DNA of 58,798 bases from positions 1 to 58,798 of the forward strand of contig RFGF01000089.1 in assembly GCA_003695915.1 (NCBI GenBank). Direction: 5' to 3'. Position numbers and translations under genes: made by a program. Positions 12,893-19,649 of this stretch are shown in pieces; position 1 is the stretch's first letter, and every line of letters begins with the position of its first letter. This DNA comes from Nitrospirota bacterium (GTDB lineage: Bacteria > Nitrospirota > Nitrospiria > Nitrospirales > UBA8639). The notes below the pieces were generated by a model. That model saw nothing but the letters and a program-made list of their open reading frames with translations. It ran no database searches and was not told where the DNA came from.

Positions 12893-13684
12893 CTACAAGA
12901 GATACAACTGCGGTCGGCGATCTTTGAAGAGGTTGTTATACGGATTGATAGATTTGTCTCGAGCTTCGTGGACATCGATATCGACAAAGACCAACTCCGA
13001 CCGATCCTCCGGAGCGCGATGCAGGATTGTTCCGTTCGGACTGACAATCTCGCTTTTGCCGATGAATCGTAGAGGGGGCTTTCCCCCTCGTGCTTCTTCG
13101 CCAATCCGATTGGCCGTAATAGCGAATACGCGATTTTCCAGGCAGCGAGTGACCATGGCATCCGGGCAATGCGGAAGCACGAGATTCGAGGGATGACACA
13201 GCACATCCGCTCCTTTGAGTGCAAGCGTGCGGGCCGATTCCGGATACAGCCAATCAAAGCAAATCAAGATTCCCAATTTGGCTATTTTGATATCCCAGAC
13301 CTGAAAACCCGTATCGCCAGGCGAAAAAAAGAGGGTTTCTTCAAAAAACAGATGTGTTTTGCGATAAGCACCGATGAATCCTTGAGGCCCGATCAAGATC
13401 GCAGAGTTATAAAACCGACGACCATGCCGCTCCGGCAGGCCAGCCACTACATAACAAGCCTGTCGCTTGGCCCACTCCATCAACCGGCGAGTGGTCTGCC
13501 CGGTTGGAATGTCCTCTGCCAGATGGGCGACTTCTTCTGGAAATACGAATTGGTAACCGGTCATCGCCAATTCTGGGAGCACGACGACATCACAGGCCAC
13601 ATCGCGCAACTGTTCCAGCACCATATCTAAATTGCGCTCTACGGCACCGAAGATTGGCTCGAACTGATAATACCCGACGCGCAT
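12893..13684 (-). CDS. Carbon-nitrogen hydrolase (nitrilase superfamily)
   Basis: The 263-residue protein is a single nitrilase-fold domain. The catalytic triad is visible as Glu in VVLPELAMTGY (about residue 38), Lys in YRKTHLFFEE (about 108) and Cys in ILICFDWLYPE (about 141). These enzymes hydrolyse amides such as N-carbamoyl amino acids, omega-amidase substrates or N-acyl compounds; the substrate here cannot be read from sequence. No signal peptide is seen, so it is cytoplasmic. It sits just beyond the terminator of the SmbP gene and is likely transcribed separately. Confidence 0.88.
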   Translation of the reverse strand: MRVGYYQFEPIFGAVERNLDMVLEQLRDVACDVVVLPELAMTGYQFVFPEEVAHLAEDIPTGQTTRRLMEWAKRQACYVVAGLPERHGRRFYNSAILIGPQGFIGAYRKTHLFFEETLFFSPGDTGFQVWDIKIAKLGILICFDWLYPESARTLALKGADVLCHPSNLVLPHCPDAMVTRCLENRVFAITANRIGEEARGGKPPLRFIGKSEIVSPNGTILHRAPEDRSELVFVDIDVHEARDKSINPYNNLFKDRRPQLYLL

Positions 13685-13705: not shown

Positions 13706-13734
13706 AAAGCGGGCAGACGTGCGCTGCCCGCTTT
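13706..13734 (-). terminator. Rho-independent terminator after the SmbP gene
   Basis: AAAGCGGGCAG (13706-13716) pairs perfectly with 13724-13734 across a 7-nt loop. On the minus strand the hairpin is followed by a T-rich tract. It lies 35 bases after the stop of the SmbP-like gene and closes the operon that begins at 17354. Confidence 0.9.
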
Positions 13735-13768
13735 GACTCGGCCTCGCTCGCTAATCTTCAATCCTTTT

Positions 13769-14122
13769 TTAATGCACCTCTTCCAAGTGCATGATTGCGC
13801 TCTTCGCATGCTTGGTCGCTACTTCGGCATGCCCTTCTTTGCCATGCGCAATCGCTTCCATCAATTCATGAACCCCTTCGTTCAAATGCGGATTGTTCAT
13901 CTCTTTTTGTGCAGCTTTGGCATGCATCAAGGCCTCTTCTGCGTGCTCGACCAAGGCATCCGCATGTCCCATGCTTCCATGCTTCACAGCGCCTTTGGCA
14001 TGCGCGATCGCTTCTGCCACATGGGGATTTCCTGCCACGGCCGATCCAATGTATAGGAAAGCGATGAGAACGAACACGACACCCAACCACACGCTGCTGC
14101 GTTGGAATCCAGCTTTGCGCAT
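13769..14122 (-). CDS. smbP: SmbP-like small periplasmic His-rich metal-binding protein
   Basis: The 117-residue precursor has a signal peptide ending near SAVAG-NPHV. The mature part is almost wholly helical, with repeated units such as HAKGAVKHG, GHADALVEHA, ALMHAKAAQ and AIAHGKEGHA. It contains 13 histidines and no Cys. This matches SmbP, described in the ammonia oxidiser Nitrosomonas europaea as a copper-binding helical-bundle protein. The likely role is periplasmic Cu (or Ni/Zn) buffering. The start at 14122 has a strong AAAGGAGG; an upstream in-frame ATG at 14197 would hide the signal peptide. It is last in the HDAC-cytochrome-rhodanese operon. Confidence 0.88.
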   Translation of the reverse strand: MRKAGFQRSSVWLGVVFVLIAFLYIGSAVAGNPHVAEAIAHAKGAVKHGSMGHADALVEHAEEALMHAKAAQKEMNNPHLNEGVHELMEAIAHGKEGHAEVATKHAKSAIMHLEEVH

Positions 14123-14207
14123 TGCAACCTCCTTTGGAAAAAATTGGATAAAACATGCAGGGCTTCGTCCGAGCCCTACGGTATCCTCGCATGGCACAGG
14201 AGATAGA

Positions 14208-15077
14208 TCAAGAAGGTTTGGCCTCGGCTTGGCCTGTCACTTTGTACAACAGTTTCACGTCTTTTTCGGTCGGCGCTGCAAAGTCGCGACTCCATTCCCA
14301 CCATGAGCCAGGATAGGTGCGGACCTTGCGATAACCTGCAAGCCGCAAGACACAATACAACCAGGCAGCGCGAAGCCCTCCCAAACAGTAGGTAATAATT
14401 TCTTGATCTTCTCGAATGCCGTGTTCCTCGAAAACAGCTCGGATCGTCGTCACGTCTTTGACAGTGGCATCCTTGTTCAAAAACCGATTCCAGGGAATGT
14501 TGATCGCAGTCGGAATATGCCCGGCGCGGGGGATACCCTCCACCTCTTTGCCAGCATACTCTTCCACGCTCCGGGCATCGATGATGACCGTATCCGGGTG
14601 AGGACGTTTGATCAATTTCTTCAATTCGTGTTTTTCGACGATTAACTCCGGACGAGGAGCAGCGCGAAAGGTTCCACGCGGTTTCGTGACTGGATCATGT
14701 TGATACGGACGATGTTCTTGGATCCACTTGACCCATCCCCCGTCGAGAATCCAAACTCGAGAATGCCCGAGGTATTGCAGCATCCAGAACATCCGCCCTT
14801 CATCGCCCCAATTGTCGAATGGATTCGAATAAATGACGACGTCGCTGTCGTTGCTGATACCCAATGACTGAAGCCGGCGCTCAATGGCCCCAAGATCCGG
14901 ATTCAACAATCCCTTTGCCACGGCTTCGGGGTCGCTGTATTCATGCCAGGTACTGCACACGGCTCCGGGAATATGGGACGAATAGGCCGCTCGTCCCCGC
15001 ACATCGATAATGACCAAGTCGTCTCGCCCTAAGTTTTGAGCCAAAGTTTCCGTGTCGATGAGAAAATCGCGTACCAT
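14208..15077 (-). CDS. Two-domain sulfurtransferase (rhodanese family)
   Basis: The 289-residue protein has two tandem rhodanese domains. The N-terminal one (residues 1-125, VIIDVRGRAAYSSHIPGAV) lacks the active Cys. The C-terminal one (about 150-275) carries the active loop CLGGLRAAW. This layout fits thiosulfate:cyanide or 3-mercaptopyruvate sulfurtransferases. There is no signal peptide, so it acts in the cytoplasm on sulfane sulfur. GAGGA precedes ATG 15077. It lies 21 bases after the five-heme cytochrome gene, in the same transcript. Confidence 0.9.
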   Translation of the reverse strand: MVRDFLIDTETLAQNLGRDDLVIIDVRGRAAYSSHIPGAVCSTWHEYSDPEAVAKGLLNPDLGAIERRLQSLGISNDSDVVIYSNPFDNWGDEGRMFWMLQYLGHSRVWILDGGWVKWIQEHRPYQHDPVTKPRGTFRAAPRPELIVEKHELKKLIKRPHPDTVIIDARSVEEYAGKEVEGIPRAGHIPTAINIPWNRFLNKDATVKDVTTIRAVFEEHGIREDQEIITYCLGGLRAAWLYCVLRLAGYRKVRTYPGSWWEWSRDFAAPTEKDVKLLYKVTGQAEAKPS

Positions 15078-15098
15078 AATGCCGGTCCTCTTCTATTT

Positions 15099-16403
15099 TC
15101 ATGACGTGCCAGATAGTCCTTTTGTGCGTCCCGCCTCGACCGAAACAGCGCAACCAAATTGTAATGCAGGTTGTCGTTGCAACGCGACCGCCAGGGTCTG
15201 ATCCAACGGAAATGCTCGCTGATAAATGACGAAGCGATACGGATCATCGGCAGTCAAGCCATAGCGCTCCCGCAGCATCTCATGTTGGCCATCGGTCAAA
15301 ATATGATAGCGGATTCGCGCTTCGACGATCCATCGTTCCGCGTCTTTGGGAATTGTATACGTAAAATCATATTCTCGACTGGCCAACGGCAAGAGACGGT
15401 TATCGTACACCTCGACGATCACCGGCTGCCAGAGAATCCATCGGCCCATCGTCTCGGCTTGATGATGCACAATCTTCCCATGTTCATCCTTGACGAGGAA
15501 CTCGATCGTAAAATGACGGTCGGGATCGCCTGTCGGGATCTTATGCCCTGCCCCGGCGTTGACGAGTGTCAAACGAAACGTCACTCGGCCTCCAGGCTTG
15601 GGCTCTAACGGATCGGCCGTAACCTGCACGGCAATCGCGCGCTTGATCATCTCCGGGTCGTGTCCGCCGCGCCAAAGATGTCGTCGCCCCAGCCGGATAG
15701 GTCCGCCATCTGCGACAGGACGGAGGACTTGCGGCATATGGCAACTTTGGCAAATCATACCTCGTTCCTGCATGAAAAATTTTCCTTCGTACTCGGCATA
15801 CGTGCCGCACGGGCCCACATTATAAAATTGAAACGGACCGGACACGACATTATGACAACGATAACAAATCTGCGTGGTCCGGAACGAGGGATCGAATTTG
15901 GTGGGATGAGGGGCTACCGAATCGTCGAACGGTCCCCAAATGGCACCGTCTCGCACGTGGCAAACGGCACAGGTCACACCTTCAGCCTGAAACTCGGGAT
16001 CAAACCGATAATTAGGAACCTGCACGGCACGTTCGACTCGATTCCGCGGAATGTCCTGAATGAGGGTCGGCTGTTGATTTTCCAGTGGGGCATGACAGTT
16101 CAAGCAAATCCAAATATTATCGTCTTTTTTCCAATAGGCCTGAAAAAACGGGTCTCGATAGGCAAACGCATGAATGCTGGTCTTCCATTCTTCGTAAATC
16201 TCTCGATGACATGCCCCGCAATCTTCGGCTTTCAAGCTCTTCAGCCCGGTCGGTACTTTTTGGAAGGGAATCGCTCTGGCATAATCATCGCGCAACCCAA
16301 AAATTACGGTGGGACGCAATTCCGTGTAGAAGATATAAAGAGCCAGCGCGAGTCCCAGCAGAAGCAGCATCCAGAACCGTATCCCTCGCTTCCGCCGTGC
16401 CAT
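15099..16403 (-). CDS. Membrane-anchored five-heme cytochrome c (cytochrome c554-like)
   Basis: The 434-residue protein has an uncleaved N-terminal anchor (WMLLLLGLALALYIFY) and five CxxCH heme sites: CGACH (62-66), CLNCH (100-104), CAVCH (145-149), CYRCH (180-184) and CQSCH (218-222). Extra conserved His residues could be distal ligands. Residues about 245-400 form a beta-rich domain (VTFRLTLVNAGAGHKIPTG) seen in multiheme cytochromes of the c554 type. It should face the periplasm and carry electrons; no partner reductase is encoded nearby. It begins six bases after the HDAC-like gene. Confidence 0.92.
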   Translation of the reverse strand: MARRKRGIRFWMLLLLGLALALYIFYTELRPTVIFGLRDDYARAIPFQKVPTGLKSLKAEDCGACHREIYEEWKTSIHAFAYRDPFFQAYWKKDDNIWICLNCHAPLENQQPTLIQDIPRNRVERAVQVPNYRFDPEFQAEGVTCAVCHVRDGAIWGPFDDSVAPHPTKFDPSFRTTQICYRCHNVVSGPFQFYNVGPCGTYAEYEGKFFMQERGMICQSCHMPQVLRPVADGGPIRLGRRHLWRGGHDPEMIKRAIAVQVTADPLEPKPGGRVTFRLTLVNAGAGHKIPTGDPDRHFTIEFLVKDEHGKIVHHQAETMGRWILWQPVIVEVYDNRLLPLASREYDFTYTIPKDAERWIVEARIRYHILTDGQHEMLRERYGLTADDPYRFVIYQRAFPLDQTLAVALQRQPALQFGCAVSVEAGRTKGLSGTS

Positions 16404-16409
16404 CGATGC

Positions 16410-17354
16410 TTACGCGTCCAGGAGAGTGCGCAGATGCCGTTCCACCGAGGCTGCCAAGGCCTGAAGATGATACCCGCCTTCCAAACACGACACGATCCTT
16501 CCTTCTGCATGGCGGGCGGCGATCTCTCGCACGATGGAGGTCAACATAGCATAGCCATCTTCCGTGAGTTCCATGCTCGCCAGCGGATCGGCTCGATGGG
16601 CATCAAACCCGGCCGAAATCATCACACATTCAGGACGAAAGGCATCGGCAGCCGCAACTAATATCGTCTCGAATACCTCCTGATACCGGGCATCGCCTTC
16701 GCCGGCGGGCATCGGCACATTGATGGTGAAGCCTTCACCCTGCCCAGCCCCGCGTTCAGAAGCCAACCCCGTCCCTGGATAGAGAGGATGTTGATGGATG
16801 CTGAAAAACAGCACGGTCGGATCCTCGTAAAAGGCCTGTTGGGTCCCATTGCCATGATGCACATCCCAATCCACGATCAATACGCGAGCGATCCCATACC
16901 GACGTTGCACATATCGCGTCGCGATGGCGACATTGTTAAAAAAACAAAATCCCATCGCGCGATCGCGCTCGGCATGATGGCCGGGCGGGCGCACGGCACA
17001 AAACGCCTGATCGACTGCGCGGGTCATCACCGCATCCACGGCAGCCAACGCTCCCCCGACCGCCAAATAAGCGGCAGAGATCGTTTTCGGACACAGCATC
17101 GTATCGGGATCTACCGGCACATACCCGCTCTGTGGCACACGGCGCTCCAAGCGCTCGACATATCCTGGATCATGAATCGTACAAATCCAGTTGCGCGATG
17201 CAGGCTGAGGATTCAATTGCGTGAGCCGAGCGAGCATTCCCGAGGATTCGAGCTGCTTCCGAATAGCTCGCAATCGCTCGGGCGATTCCGGATGCGAGGG
17301 CCCCATTTCGTGCTCCAGATAGGCGGGATGAGACACGAACCCGACTCGACCCAT
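16410..17354 (-). CDS. Histone deacetylase family protein (AcuC/acetylpolyamine amidohydrolase-like)
   Basis: Bacterial members of the arginase/deacetylase fold remove acetyl groups from small amines or proteins in a Zn-dependent reaction. The 314-residue protein has the active-site pair RPPGHHAE, the FFNNVAIATRY segment, the metal ligands in VDWDVHHGNGT and SAGFDAHRADPL, and the glycine-rich CLEGGYHL loop. All expected residues are present. GGAGAG lies before ATG 17354. It heads the minus-strand operon with the cytochrome, the sulfurtransferase and SmbP. An AT-rich 7-bp inverted repeat (CTCTATA/TATAGAG, 17375-17400) lies in its upstream region. Confidence 0.92.
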   Translation of the reverse strand: MGRVGFVSHPAYLEHEMGPSHPESPERLRAIRKQLESSGMLARLTQLNPQPASRNWICTIHDPGYVERLERRVPQSGYVPVDPDTMLCPKTISAAYLAVGGALAAVDAVMTRAVDQAFCAVRPPGHHAERDRAMGFCFFNNVAIATRYVQRRYGIARVLIVDWDVHHGNGTQQAFYEDPTVLFFSIHQHPLYPGTGLASERGAGQGEGFTINVPMPAGEGDARYQEVFETILVAAADAFRPECVMISAGFDAHRADPLASMELTEDGYAMLTSIVREIAARHAEGRIVSCLEGGYHLQALAASVERHLRTLLDA

Positions 17355-17600
17355 ACCTTCTCTCCTTCTCTAACCTCTATACAACTTATAACTTATAGAG
17401 AAAGCATCGTGCCAAAAGAGACAGGCTGATCCATTACGACTCAACAATTGACGAGGTCATGTTCGACCAGTGGGCATCCTATCATATCATATTCTCATAT
17501 TCCGAGATCGAAGACATGGTCGACAATTTCGCCTATGGCGTGATAGCATCATCCGCGATGCGTTCATAAAACCGCTCGTTCCTAAACGTCCCTGTATCCC

Positions 17601-17915
17601 ATGTCCAATCCCAAAATCGAACAATTCAAAAAAGTCCTCCAACTCGATCCAAACGACGAAACTCTCTGGTTCGGTTTGGGAAACGTCTATATGGACGACG
17701 AAACGTGGGATGAAGCGATCTCGGCGTTTCAACGTTGTCTCGCAGTTCAACCCCGCTATTCCGCCGCTTATTATGCGCTGGCCAAGGCCTACCACCATGC
17801 CGGTGACCTCGAAGCTTGCCGACGGATTTGCGAGCACGGCATCGAAGTGGCCTCGAGCAACGGCGATCTTCTTGTCGTCAAAAACCTAGAGGCGCTCAAA
17901 TCCTCGCTCGCCTAA
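17601..17915 (+). CDS. Small TPR protein
   Basis: The 104-residue protein is made of about two and a half tetratricopeptide repeats: FKKVLQLDPNDETLWFGLGNVY, AISAFQRCLAVQPRYSAAYYALA and a third partial unit. It has no signal peptide or membrane segment. TPRs bind partner proteins; the partner is unknown. The gene is a single unit between two minus-strand operons and has no clear ribosome binding site before ATG 17601. Confidence 0.8.
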   Translation: MSNPKIEQFKKVLQLDPNDETLWFGLGNVYMDDETWDEAISAFQRCLAVQPRYSAAYYALAKAYHHAGDLEACRRICEHGIEVASSNGDLLVVKNLEALKSSLA

Positions 17916-18006: not shown

Positions 18007-18882
18007 TCACAAGGCTTGTTGCAGAGCCACCTTTTCGTGTCGGGTCAATGCGTATCGGGCAAACGGATTGTTGACCAAGGCTCGAATACGAGGATGCCGT
18101 GGATCCTGAGCCGTGCGCGTCACGCAGTGGACATCGGCTAACCGAATCGTCGACCGTCGTTCGCGGGGTTTCGCGTCCCAAAACGTCAGCAGCACCGCGC
18201 TCAATGTCGGCAAGGCAGCCAGTGCGCTGACAGAAACACCTGCCAGGCGTTGCACGTCGAGATATTCTTCCCTCTTCGGCACGGCCCGTGAAGTCCACAT
18301 CGGCACGGTAATGGCGAGAATAATAGGCGCACAATAGCGGTCAAGTTGCCTGGCTTTTTCCGCCATTCTGGCAATCAGCCGCCGTTCCAAGATCGTTTGT
18401 GTGTCTTCAAGCGGCCAATGAAGAGTTGGAGAAGGTTCATACGCTGGAGGAAAACTCTGGAGCGGCAATGGGGTAGGAGCCATCACCGTCACTTCGACAA
18501 AACAGCGATCCTGTCCCCAATAACATTCCAAGTCGGCGGTTCGTGCGCTCGTTTCTTCGAGAAAGGCCAACGAAAACCCGGCATGAACAAGCCGCGAGGC
18601 CACATCGATTTCGCCAGCAGCTGAGTAAGCCATGGGCCACTGTCGCATCTCGAATCGTGCACGCAAGCTCATCAACCGGCTACGACTGCCGGGGTCTGTA
18701 CAGGTTGTGAACAACTCTTGCCATTGCGGAAGAAATCGATGAGCCCAAGAGGAGGAAGCCGCAATCGATTCCCGATTCAACCGATCCTCTCCCATTCGTA
18801 CCTGTCGAGACCTCCGCATCCGAATCATAGCTCGTTCAACTTGCGATGCCTTCAGTCTTCCTCCGCGTCTGACATCAGACAA
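18007..18882 (-). CDS. Unknown protein with PD-(D/E)xK nuclease-like central region
   Basis: I do not recognise a named family. The product of up to 291 residues has a basic N-terminus, then a block near residues 90-135 reading GEIDVASRLVHAGF, ADLECYWG, CFVEVTV. The order helix, D-L-E, hydrophobic strand E-V-T resembles the core of PD-(D/E)xK proteins, but the usual Lys after the second acid is Thr here. Catalysis is therefore doubtful. The start is unsure: TTG 18882 is the longest, ATG 18828 an internal choice, and neither has a clear binding site. It follows 44 bases after the 18927-19649 gene and may share its transcript. Confidence 0.65.
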   Translation of the reverse strand: MSDVRRGGRLKASQVERAMIRMRRSRQVRMGEDRLNRESIAASSSWAHRFLPQWQELFTTCTDPGSRSRLMSLRARFEMRQWPMAYSAAGEIDVASRLVHAGFSLAFLEETSARTADLECYWGQDRCFVEVTVMAPTPLPLQSFPPAYEPSPTLHWPLEDTQTILERRLIARMAEKARQLDRYCAPIILAITVPMWTSRAVPKREEYLDVQRLAGVSVSALAALPTLSAVLLTFWDAKPRERRSTIRLADVHCVTRTAQDPRHPRIRALVNNPFARYALTRHEKVALQQAL

Positions 18883-18926: not shown

Positions 18927-19649
18927 TTAACGATCCGAAGGGAGATGAGAGGTCGGACGTAACTCCTCCAACGTAAAGTGCTTGGGCAGCAATACAGGGA
19001 TCACCACGGCAATGGGATCCCCGCGCTTGAGCGTCGTCGGTTTTTCGATCTGAAGCAAGACATTCGCGACAAAGGCGTCATAATCGGGCAGGAATTCGTA
19101 TCGGTTGGGAGTCAGTTTATACTCCTGAGACTTGATCCCCTCCCAAACCTGGAAGGTGCGGTTGGGAAAATGATAGAAATGGTTGGGAAGATCCTTGAGC
19201 ATGATCCCCAATTGTTTGGGGTAGTAAAACCGGATGCCACAGCACAGCTTGGCGTACCCGCTATTGAGAATCGTGTCGACATACGTACCTGAAAATGATT
19301 TATAGCCTAACAGTCGCTCTTCCGGAAGGATGGGGGGCGCTTGCCATTTGACCCCGGTAGCCGTTCGTCGAATTTTGCAATCCACTGGGCACCGGATGAG
19401 CCATCCGTATTGCCCGACCATCCTGACCGGGCCACAATCATCGGGAATCACCCGGTACCCGCTGGCTGCCAACTGCTGCTGTTCCTGAAGGGACATATTT
19501 GTCATCAAGGGCCGATGAGGATGGAAGTCCAGGCGGAGTCGTTCCGGAGCTATCGCAGTCGTATACTCGCGTTCCCAATAGAACGTCCATTGTCGCTCGT
19601 TGACGTCGTGTCCCTGTTTACTGTGCGGTTCCAGTTCTTTGGACATCAT
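18927..19649 (-). CDS. Conserved-looking protein of unknown function
   Basis: The 240-residue protein has no signal peptide. It is rich in aromatic residues and prolines and contains GWLIRCPVDCKIRRT, a pair of cysteines in LCCGIRFYYPKQ, and YHFPNRTFQVWEGI. The layout resembles uncharacterised cytosolic proteins of the DUF6065 type, but I cannot confirm this. Its ATG overlaps the stop of the flavodoxin-like gene by four bases, so the two are probably translated together and act in the same process. Confidence 0.7.
   Translation of the reverse strand: MMSKELEPHSKQGHDVNERQWTFYWEREYTTAIAPERLRLDFHPHRPLMTNMSLQEQQQLAASGYRVIPDDCGPVRMVGQYGWLIRCPVDCKIRRTATGVKWQAPPILPEERLLGYKSFSGTYVDTILNSGYAKLCCGIRFYYPKQLGIMLKDLPNHFYHFPNRTFQVWEGIKSQEYKLTPNRYEFLPDYDAFVANVLLQIEKPTTLKRGDPIAVVIPVLLPKHFTLEELRPTSHLPSDR

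Follow-up and report, generated by a model that had tools for sequence, protein, structure and literature searches.

Nitrospira are major nitrite oxidizers, with complete ammonia oxidizers among them, and a role has yet to be assigned to many of their periplasmic cytochromes. In this study, we analysed a 58,798-nucleotide contig of a Nitrospirota bacterium from the order Nitrospirales (assembly GCA_003695915.1, contig RFGF01000089.1; the whole stretch is hereafter called the window), in which four consecutive genes encode a histone deacetylase (HDAC)-like hydrolase, a pentaheme cytochrome, a rhodanese and the small metal-binding protein SmbP. Among the closest described systems, the accessible part of one report places ExtKL, Gsu2801 and the pentahemes of cable bacteria in one family, and gives the role of the Thermochromatium tepidum cytochrome c552 as not clear, a function in sulfur metabolism being suggested (PMC11976967). 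In Geobacter, the available portion of another report describes a rhodanese-like protein (extH) and the five-heme ExtKL in one cluster, extHIJKLMNOPQS, and names ExtKL as a candidate for selenite reduction (PMC5877670). By analogy, this cluster gives the strongest external hint that a rhodanese and a pentaheme cytochrome may be linked, and only these two are common in kind to the cluster and to our locus. Literature searches on Nitrospira and the operon components returned no account resembling this operon, as judged by bibliographic entries only. To our knowledge, its gene content matches no described pathway.

We consider it moderately likely that the locus is a co-expressed set of genes carrying a separable electron-transfer cytochrome, and not one obligatory pathway. 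The original prediction had described four genes of these identities on one strand, with gaps of 6, 21 and 85 bases and a clear terminator at their end, and the window coordinates and the protein families found agree with each of these points. The features are listed below by their positions in the window.

16410 to 17354, minus strand: HDAC-like Zn hydrolase, 314 amino acids, operon gene 1 (PF00850, 351 bits)
15099 to 16403, minus strand: pentaheme cytochrome, 434 amino acids, with five CXXCH motifs, the c552 fold and an N-terminal hydrophobic helix, a predicted membrane anchor
14208 to 15077, minus strand: two-domain rhodanese, 289 amino acids (PF00581, 115 bits, in two stretches), with a Cys in a YC.GG.R loop
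13769 to 14122, minus strand: SmbP, small His-rich metal-binding protein, 117 amino acids (PF16785, 104 bits, cut-off 29), final gene upstream of the terminator
13706 to 13734, minus strand: intrinsic terminator 3' of SmbP, an 11-pair stem followed by TTTATTG
12893 to 13684, minus strand: nitrilase-family gene, 263 amino acids (PF00795, 163 bits), about 20 bases beyond the terminator
17601 to 17915, plus strand: small TPR protein, 104 amino acids (Pfam TPR), a divergent neighbour with a promoter region common with the HDAC-like gene
17520 to 17549, plus strand: TCGACA-18-TAGCAT, promoter-like site for the TPR gene; the opposite strand reads TTGTCGA (17526 to 17520)

The three gaps separate HDAC from cytochrome, cytochrome from rhodanese and rhodanese from SmbP, respectively. 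The terminator has the most stem pairs among 11 terminator-like sites in the 6 kb scanned, where 6.1 were expected. In the Pfam scan, the cytochrome gave weak general multiheme matches only. The conserved block is wider than the four genes of the original prediction and also contains the divergent TPR gene and the nitrilase-family gene, so that six genes describe the conserved unit best.

Comparing the gene order across related genomes had been proposed as a check, in which an order unique to this genome would have refuted the proposal; the order is instead widely conserved. We used two sets of loci, both chosen via the cytochrome and overlapping in their genomes. The first comprised 49 loci from the order, each with flanks of no more than 7 kb per side. 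The second, drawn from another collection, comprised named loci, namely the 80 best of 216, with L173 of N. moscoviensis and L178 of N. defluvii among them. The HDAC, cytochrome and rhodanese genes were collinear on one strand in 45/49 and 78/80 loci, and SmbP and the nitrilase gene were collinear with them in 40/49 and 71/80. Three of the six non-collinear loci stop at a contig end (L074, L169, L186); two have HDAC and rhodanese at another place in the genome (L068, L069); and in L071, whose genome is 71% complete, neither gene was found. The distance from cytochrome to rhodanese reached 3.9 kb in L060 and 1.2 kb in L172. Adjacency, defined as lying within 1 kb and scored only in loci that contain the pair member closer to the cytochrome plus 2.5 kb of flank, was found for TPR-HDAC in 30/32 loci, HDAC-cytochrome in 36/39, cytochrome-rhodanese in 43/47, rhodanese-SmbP in 34/41 and SmbP-nitrilase in 37/37, and falls at the two block edges to 8/29 and 10/36.

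In a set of 59 relatives, own genome included, every genome gave some match to the cytochrome at E 1e-3. A clear orthologue (61-77% identity) or its fragments was present in 52, and the other seven (G015, G018, G021, G028, G030, G034 and G039), each in at least 200 contigs, had weak matches only. Of 295 genomes sampled across the phylum, 104 had the cytochrome at E 1e-40, comprising 92/98 of the same order and 12/197 outside it (a split counted by hand). The cytochrome is usually single-copy in the order. Two genomes, G155 (C1:3025531-3026723) and G237 (C5:196476-197713), hold a second copy as two adjacent partial matches resembling a frameshift. We also observed a duplication of SmbP within the block in one locus (L189:8263-9142) and, in L199, an apparent tandem duplication with remnants of the rhodanese, SmbP and nitrilase genes.

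The cytochrome can be lost or moved while its neighbours remain in place. Nine loci keep HDAC, rhodanese, SmbP and nitrilase in order without it: the cytochrome was not found in G191, G211, G240, G293 and G306, which are five of the six order members without cytochrome in the phylum sample, and lies at another place in G051, G318, G253 and G270. In these cytochrome-free operons, the HDAC-rhodanese gap is 32-90 bases. The sixth cytochrome-negative member, G251, seems to be broken by contig ends, as its rhodanese begins one contig and its HDAC lies on another. It is one of two ambiguous cases among the 20 genomes of family f3 with a lost or displaced cytochrome, the other being G243, in which none of HDAC, rhodanese and nitrilase was found. 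Eight displaced cytochromes from the order were included in the tree, where they form a single clade within the operon copies (100/98), and two genomes (G218 and G233) carry two full copies each. This nesting, together with the double copies, indicates one or more copying events to another place in the genome, and loss of the operon copy in several genomes. Such a departure of the cytochrome from an otherwise intact operon argues against an obligatory pathway.

Cytochrome loss as a trait of complete ammonia oxidizers was considered and is not supported. Ammonia monooxygenase (AMO) was found in 31/60 chosen f3 genomes, namely in 14/20 with a lost or displaced cytochrome vs 17/40 others, and since the displaced copies in the tree are one clade, this pattern does not constitute independent evidence. 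The neighbours of the displaced cytochromes were also inspected for a partner, and no consistent one emerged across the loci viewed; they include a VIT-family protein (L105), VTT-domain and CopD-like proteins (L068) and an ArsS radical SAM protein (L071). In L071 (5811-8401), the cytochrome directly follows this ArsS-type arsenosugar radical SAM gene (TIGR04167, 454 bits), and its place in the tree is odd, an f2 genome standing inside an f3 clade. An ArsR-type regulator lies beside a distant relative of the cytochrome in L103.

The block seems to have grown stepwise. In five outgroups of the same class, HDAC and cytochrome both occur but lie on separate contigs, nitrilase and SmbP were each found in 4/5, and no such rhodanese was found at E 1e-20 in any of the five. 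Within the order, the tree places family f4 as the first branch, the remaining families being joined at 95/86, and in the four f4 loci the operon consists of HDAC, cytochrome and rhodanese only; SmbP lies elsewhere in 4/4 of these genomes and a nitrilase relative (43-45% identity) elsewhere in three. In family f2, about 2 kb separate rhodanese and SmbP in four loci, and in one of the f2 loci (L072) a gene for an ATP-dependent DNA ligase lies between the two. In f1 and f3, the block is compact in most loci. It is this succession, from unlinked genes in the outgroups through three genes in f4 to more genes later, that suggests gradual assembly.

The transcription signals are consistent with a single unit. 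The median distance from HDAC to cytochrome is 3 bases, and in 53/124 loci the two genes overlap or abut (starts picked by script), which suggests that the two genes may be translationally coupled. A terminator-like hairpin with a T-rich tail separates SmbP from the nitrilase gene in 46/49 loci, a count made without shuffle control; the operon end given by the original prediction thus looks right, and the nitrilase gene, although part of the conserved block, is probably on a separate or read-through transcript. The spacer between the TPR and HDAC genes contains TTGTCTA in 94 of 96 non-redundant cases (94/95 without the window), the exceptions being the window and L066, whereas the commonest 7-mer over 20 shuffled sets of 96 spacers reached 10; these spacers share descent, and the counts are not independent. 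In the HDAC direction, TTGTCTA fits a -35 box, and a -10-like hexamer follows 16-18 bases away in 65/94; in the TPR direction, the element reads TAGACA, with a -10-like hexamer at the same distance in 62/94. Such hexamers occur at 8% (HDAC direction) and 11% (TPR direction) of random positions. The simplest reading would be two divergent promoters sharing one -35, which would explain the near-fixed seven bases; alternatively, TTGTCTA may be the site of a regulator. A regulon for this element found no support in 15 genomes. A strict pattern of 14 fixed bases gave a single match each in three of them, always at this operon, and none in 12; the backwards control likewise gave three matches, so that the count is not above control, and the pattern is too strict for a survey. 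Taken together, the conserved order, promoter-like element and terminator support the four genes as a real operon, old in the order Nitrospirales.

The cytochrome belongs to a fold already described. An AlphaFold (AF2) model built from 48 aligned sequences (mean pLDDT 87.4, pTM 0.83) has a helix at residues 2-29 and a C-terminal beta domain of immunoglobulin (Ig)-like type. In the VIA comparison, it matched T. tepidum c552 (5ze8) with Z 24.2, a root-mean-square deviation of 2.8 over 302 residues and 25% identity, and the next entries covered the Ig-like domain only, with Z 9.8 at best. Foldseek gave E 5.7e-17 against 5ze8 (TM 0.59/0.65). Among the matches listed, 5ze8 is the only solved structure aligned over nearly the whole protein; 9wt8 (MccSep) was not among the Foldseek or VIA matches listed, which is uninformative on the fold of 9wt8. 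A profile search reached both, 5ze8 at E 9e-23 and MccSep at E 3e-19. The protein encoded in the window has the five hemes, Ig-like domain and overall fold of c552, and carries in addition the N-terminal hydrophobic helix, expected to be a membrane anchor. ExtKL and MccSep fall in the same wider pentaheme family, whereas our cytochrome has no selenocysteine and scored 68 bits against the ExtKL equivalog NF040886, below the cut-off of 250. At the selenocysteine position of MccSep (GH.P.GU motif), it has Asp in 44/48 sequences, Thr in three and His in one, the residue in this protein being Asp293, and Cys199 is conserved in 46/48. The Cys and His of the five CXXCH motifs are invariant in the 48 sequences, and five further His are conserved (H78 47/48, H166 48/48, H242 48/48, H248 46/48, H287 48/48; also H367, 45/48). 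These five would be enough for five distal ligands, and all five hemes are probably ligated by two His.

With respect to the other genes of the Geobacter ext cluster, the porin ExtI, the multiheme ExtM/N and the bc-type genes were not found beside the cytochrome. There was no porin match among 10 proteins scanned around the operon and, in the window, no other CXXCH-bearing open reading frame above 120 amino acids, and thus no 10- or 12-heme partner there. Another contig (L192:7203-9836, G000 contig 49) encodes two further tandem pentahemes that share 22-26% identity with the operon cytochrome and belong to its wide family. An ethylbenzene-dehydrogenase-type heme b subunit (PF09459, 100 bits; TIGR03477 145, cut-off 170) and a PDZ-like protein are encoded nearby. 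Many relatives likewise show such a tandem pair, as weak matches.

The HDAC-like protein belongs to the HDAC superfamily, having the Hist_deacetyl domain and the Zn and His-dyad motifs. It aligns with both HDAC6 domains, and the motifs GHH, DWDVHHGNG, GFDaH and GGY are conserved in 47 aligned rows. Its catalytic motifs are common with class II HDAC6 and the bacterial HDAC-like amidohydrolases, the best solved matches being Burkholderia 5ji5 (300 bits) and the double-domain HDAC6 chains (about 220 for each domain), ahead of HDAC10 (174) and an acetylpolyamine enzyme (145). A Glu gatekeeper marks the HDAC10-type polyamine deacetylases; here, Leu stands at that position (ADPLASM aligned to GDPLG of HDAC6 domain 2). 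A polyamine pathway, pairing the HDAC-like protein with an N-carbamoylputrescine-type nitrilase, was rejected because of this Leu and because the nitrilase scores higher with PH0642-type chains (281 bits) than with carbamoylputrescine amidases (106 bits). The closest solved relatives of the nitrilase are PH0642 and other CN-hydrolase chains, some of them named nitrilase, and it scored 314 bits against the archaeal nitrilase NCBIfam model (cut-off 500). The rhodanese resembles thiosulfate and 3-mercaptopyruvate sulfurtransferases in its two rhodanese domains and C-terminal catalytic Cys loop, the latter kept throughout 46 aligned rows. The solved structures that match it best bear the names rhodanese or thiosulfate sulfurtransferase (among them 1uar, 134 bits), and its best NCBIfam model was 3-mercaptopyruvate sulfurtransferase NF008557 (114 bits, cut-off 250); we take its loop, YCLGGLRAA, to be unlike those of both classical enzymes. 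By eye, with no signal-peptide program run, neither the HDAC-like protein nor the rhodanese shows an obvious export signal, and the rhodanese has no N-terminal hydrophobic stretch; the rhodanese would thus probably lie across the membrane from the cytochrome.

We infer the following arrangement. A transcription unit kept widely in Nitrospirales, comprising the HDAC-like deacylase, the pentaheme cytochrome, the rhodanese, SmbP and a terminator, would be driven from a divergent promoter region in common with the TPR gene, with the nitrilase-family gene downstream. For the cytochrome, the most likely role is that of a periplasmic electron-transfer protein anchored in the membrane; held at the inner membrane by its uncleaved N-terminal helix, it would pass electrons through its five hemes from a membrane or periplasmic donor to an acceptor. 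The HDAC-like protein and the rhodanese are probably active cytoplasmic enzymes, a deacylase and a sulfurtransferase, respectively, and SmbP is probably an exported metal buffer. The four proteins would be co-expressed without forming a single obligatory pathway.

Several observations weigh against this arrangement. Across most of the order, early-branching families included, the cytochrome sits between HDAC and rhodanese, and so persistent a position argues for some functional or dosage link; moreover, 14 of the 20 f3 genomes without an operon cytochrome retain a copy at another place. Five outer flank pairs, each countable in 8 to 16 loci, are kept at 5/8 to 13/16, with 8/11 among them, which indicates that parts of the flanks are kept too. 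The window itself has a one-base variant of the promoter element, TTGTCGA (17526-17520); in the TPR direction, its -10 is TAGCAT, no good HDAC-direction -10 was seen in the window at the usual spacing, and promoter matches in the window are at chance level (5 found vs 4.5 expected). Finally, heme ligation is read from His conservation and not from heme coordinates.

The original prediction had also proposed a theme of metal and reactive-sulfur handling around a periplasmic redox protein. As one unit, SmbP would buffer periplasmic copper, the rhodanese would move sulfane sulfur within the cytoplasm, the cytochrome would dispose of electrons and the HDAC-like protein would tune enzymes through deacylation. 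The operon part of that interpretation stands on order, promoter-like element and terminator, but we regard the unit as unlikely. The strong collinearity and common promoter element are in accordance with it, as are the clustering of a rhodanese-like protein with ExtKL in Geobacter (PMC5877670, available portion) and the sulfur-metabolism role suggested for T. tepidum c552 (PMC11976967, accessible part). However, the cytochrome departs in nine loci while the other genes stay, SmbP lies outside the operon in all four f4 genomes and the nitrilase relative elsewhere in three, a ligase gene interrupts the L072 block, and the five outgroups combine HDAC and cytochrome, four of them also SmbP, with none of this rhodanese. 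A more speculative reading, which we consider distinctly unlikely, is an undescribed Nitrospirales module in which the pentaheme, through Cys199 and Asp293, would react with periplasmic sulfur, selenium or metal species, co-expressed with the sulfurtransferase, deacylase, SmbP and TPR protein through the dual-direction -35. It is quite improbable, in our estimation, that the cytochrome is a terminal reductase or oxidase of chalcogens or sulfur oxyanions, like ExtKL or MccSep, and that the rhodanese either provides the reduced chalcogen or takes it up. The profile matches to MccSep and c552, the conserved C199, the weak matches of cytochrome and rhodanese to ExtKL (68 bits) and ExtH (51 bits) and the naming of ExtKL for selenite reduction in the available portion of PMC5877670 point that way; yet both Ext scores are far under their cut-offs (250 and 200), Asp occupies the selenocysteine position in most sequences, each of the five hemes has a conserved candidate for its second His, and the rhodanese is probably on the opposite side of the membrane.

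Two further readings were considered. Rhodanese chemistry, which converts cyanide to thiocyanate, could be combined with the nitrilase-family enzyme and an amidohydrolase in the detoxification of cyanide, nitriles or thiocyanate, and the nitrilase gene does lie in the conserved block, beside SmbP in every locus counted. We hold this to be highly improbable, since the hairpin splits off the nitrilase gene in nearly all loci, the enzyme is nearest PH0642 and other CN-hydrolase chains, only some named nitrilase, with 314 bits vs the cut-off of 500, and such a pathway offers no evident role for cytochrome and SmbP. There is likewise very little probability, in our view, that slow rearrangement in the order simply holds unrelated housekeeping neighbours together. 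The window is rich in housekeeping genes (open reading frames read by eye) and the five flanking pairs are kept, but conservation drops at the block edges (8/29 and 10/36, without a genome-wide baseline) and the promoter-like element is retained. We keep the co-expressed set with a separable cytochrome as the favoured explanation.

Further along the window, two genes (18007-18882 and 18927-19649) have no Pfam or NCBIfam match. The second reaches up to 86% identity in relatives, which is unusually conserved for a protein without a family match.

A conserved cytochrome found with an operon and a promoter-like element, and naturally lost in some genomes, is a clear target for genetics and biochemistry in Nitrospira, and the natural cytochrome-free operons offer a ready comparison for its function.

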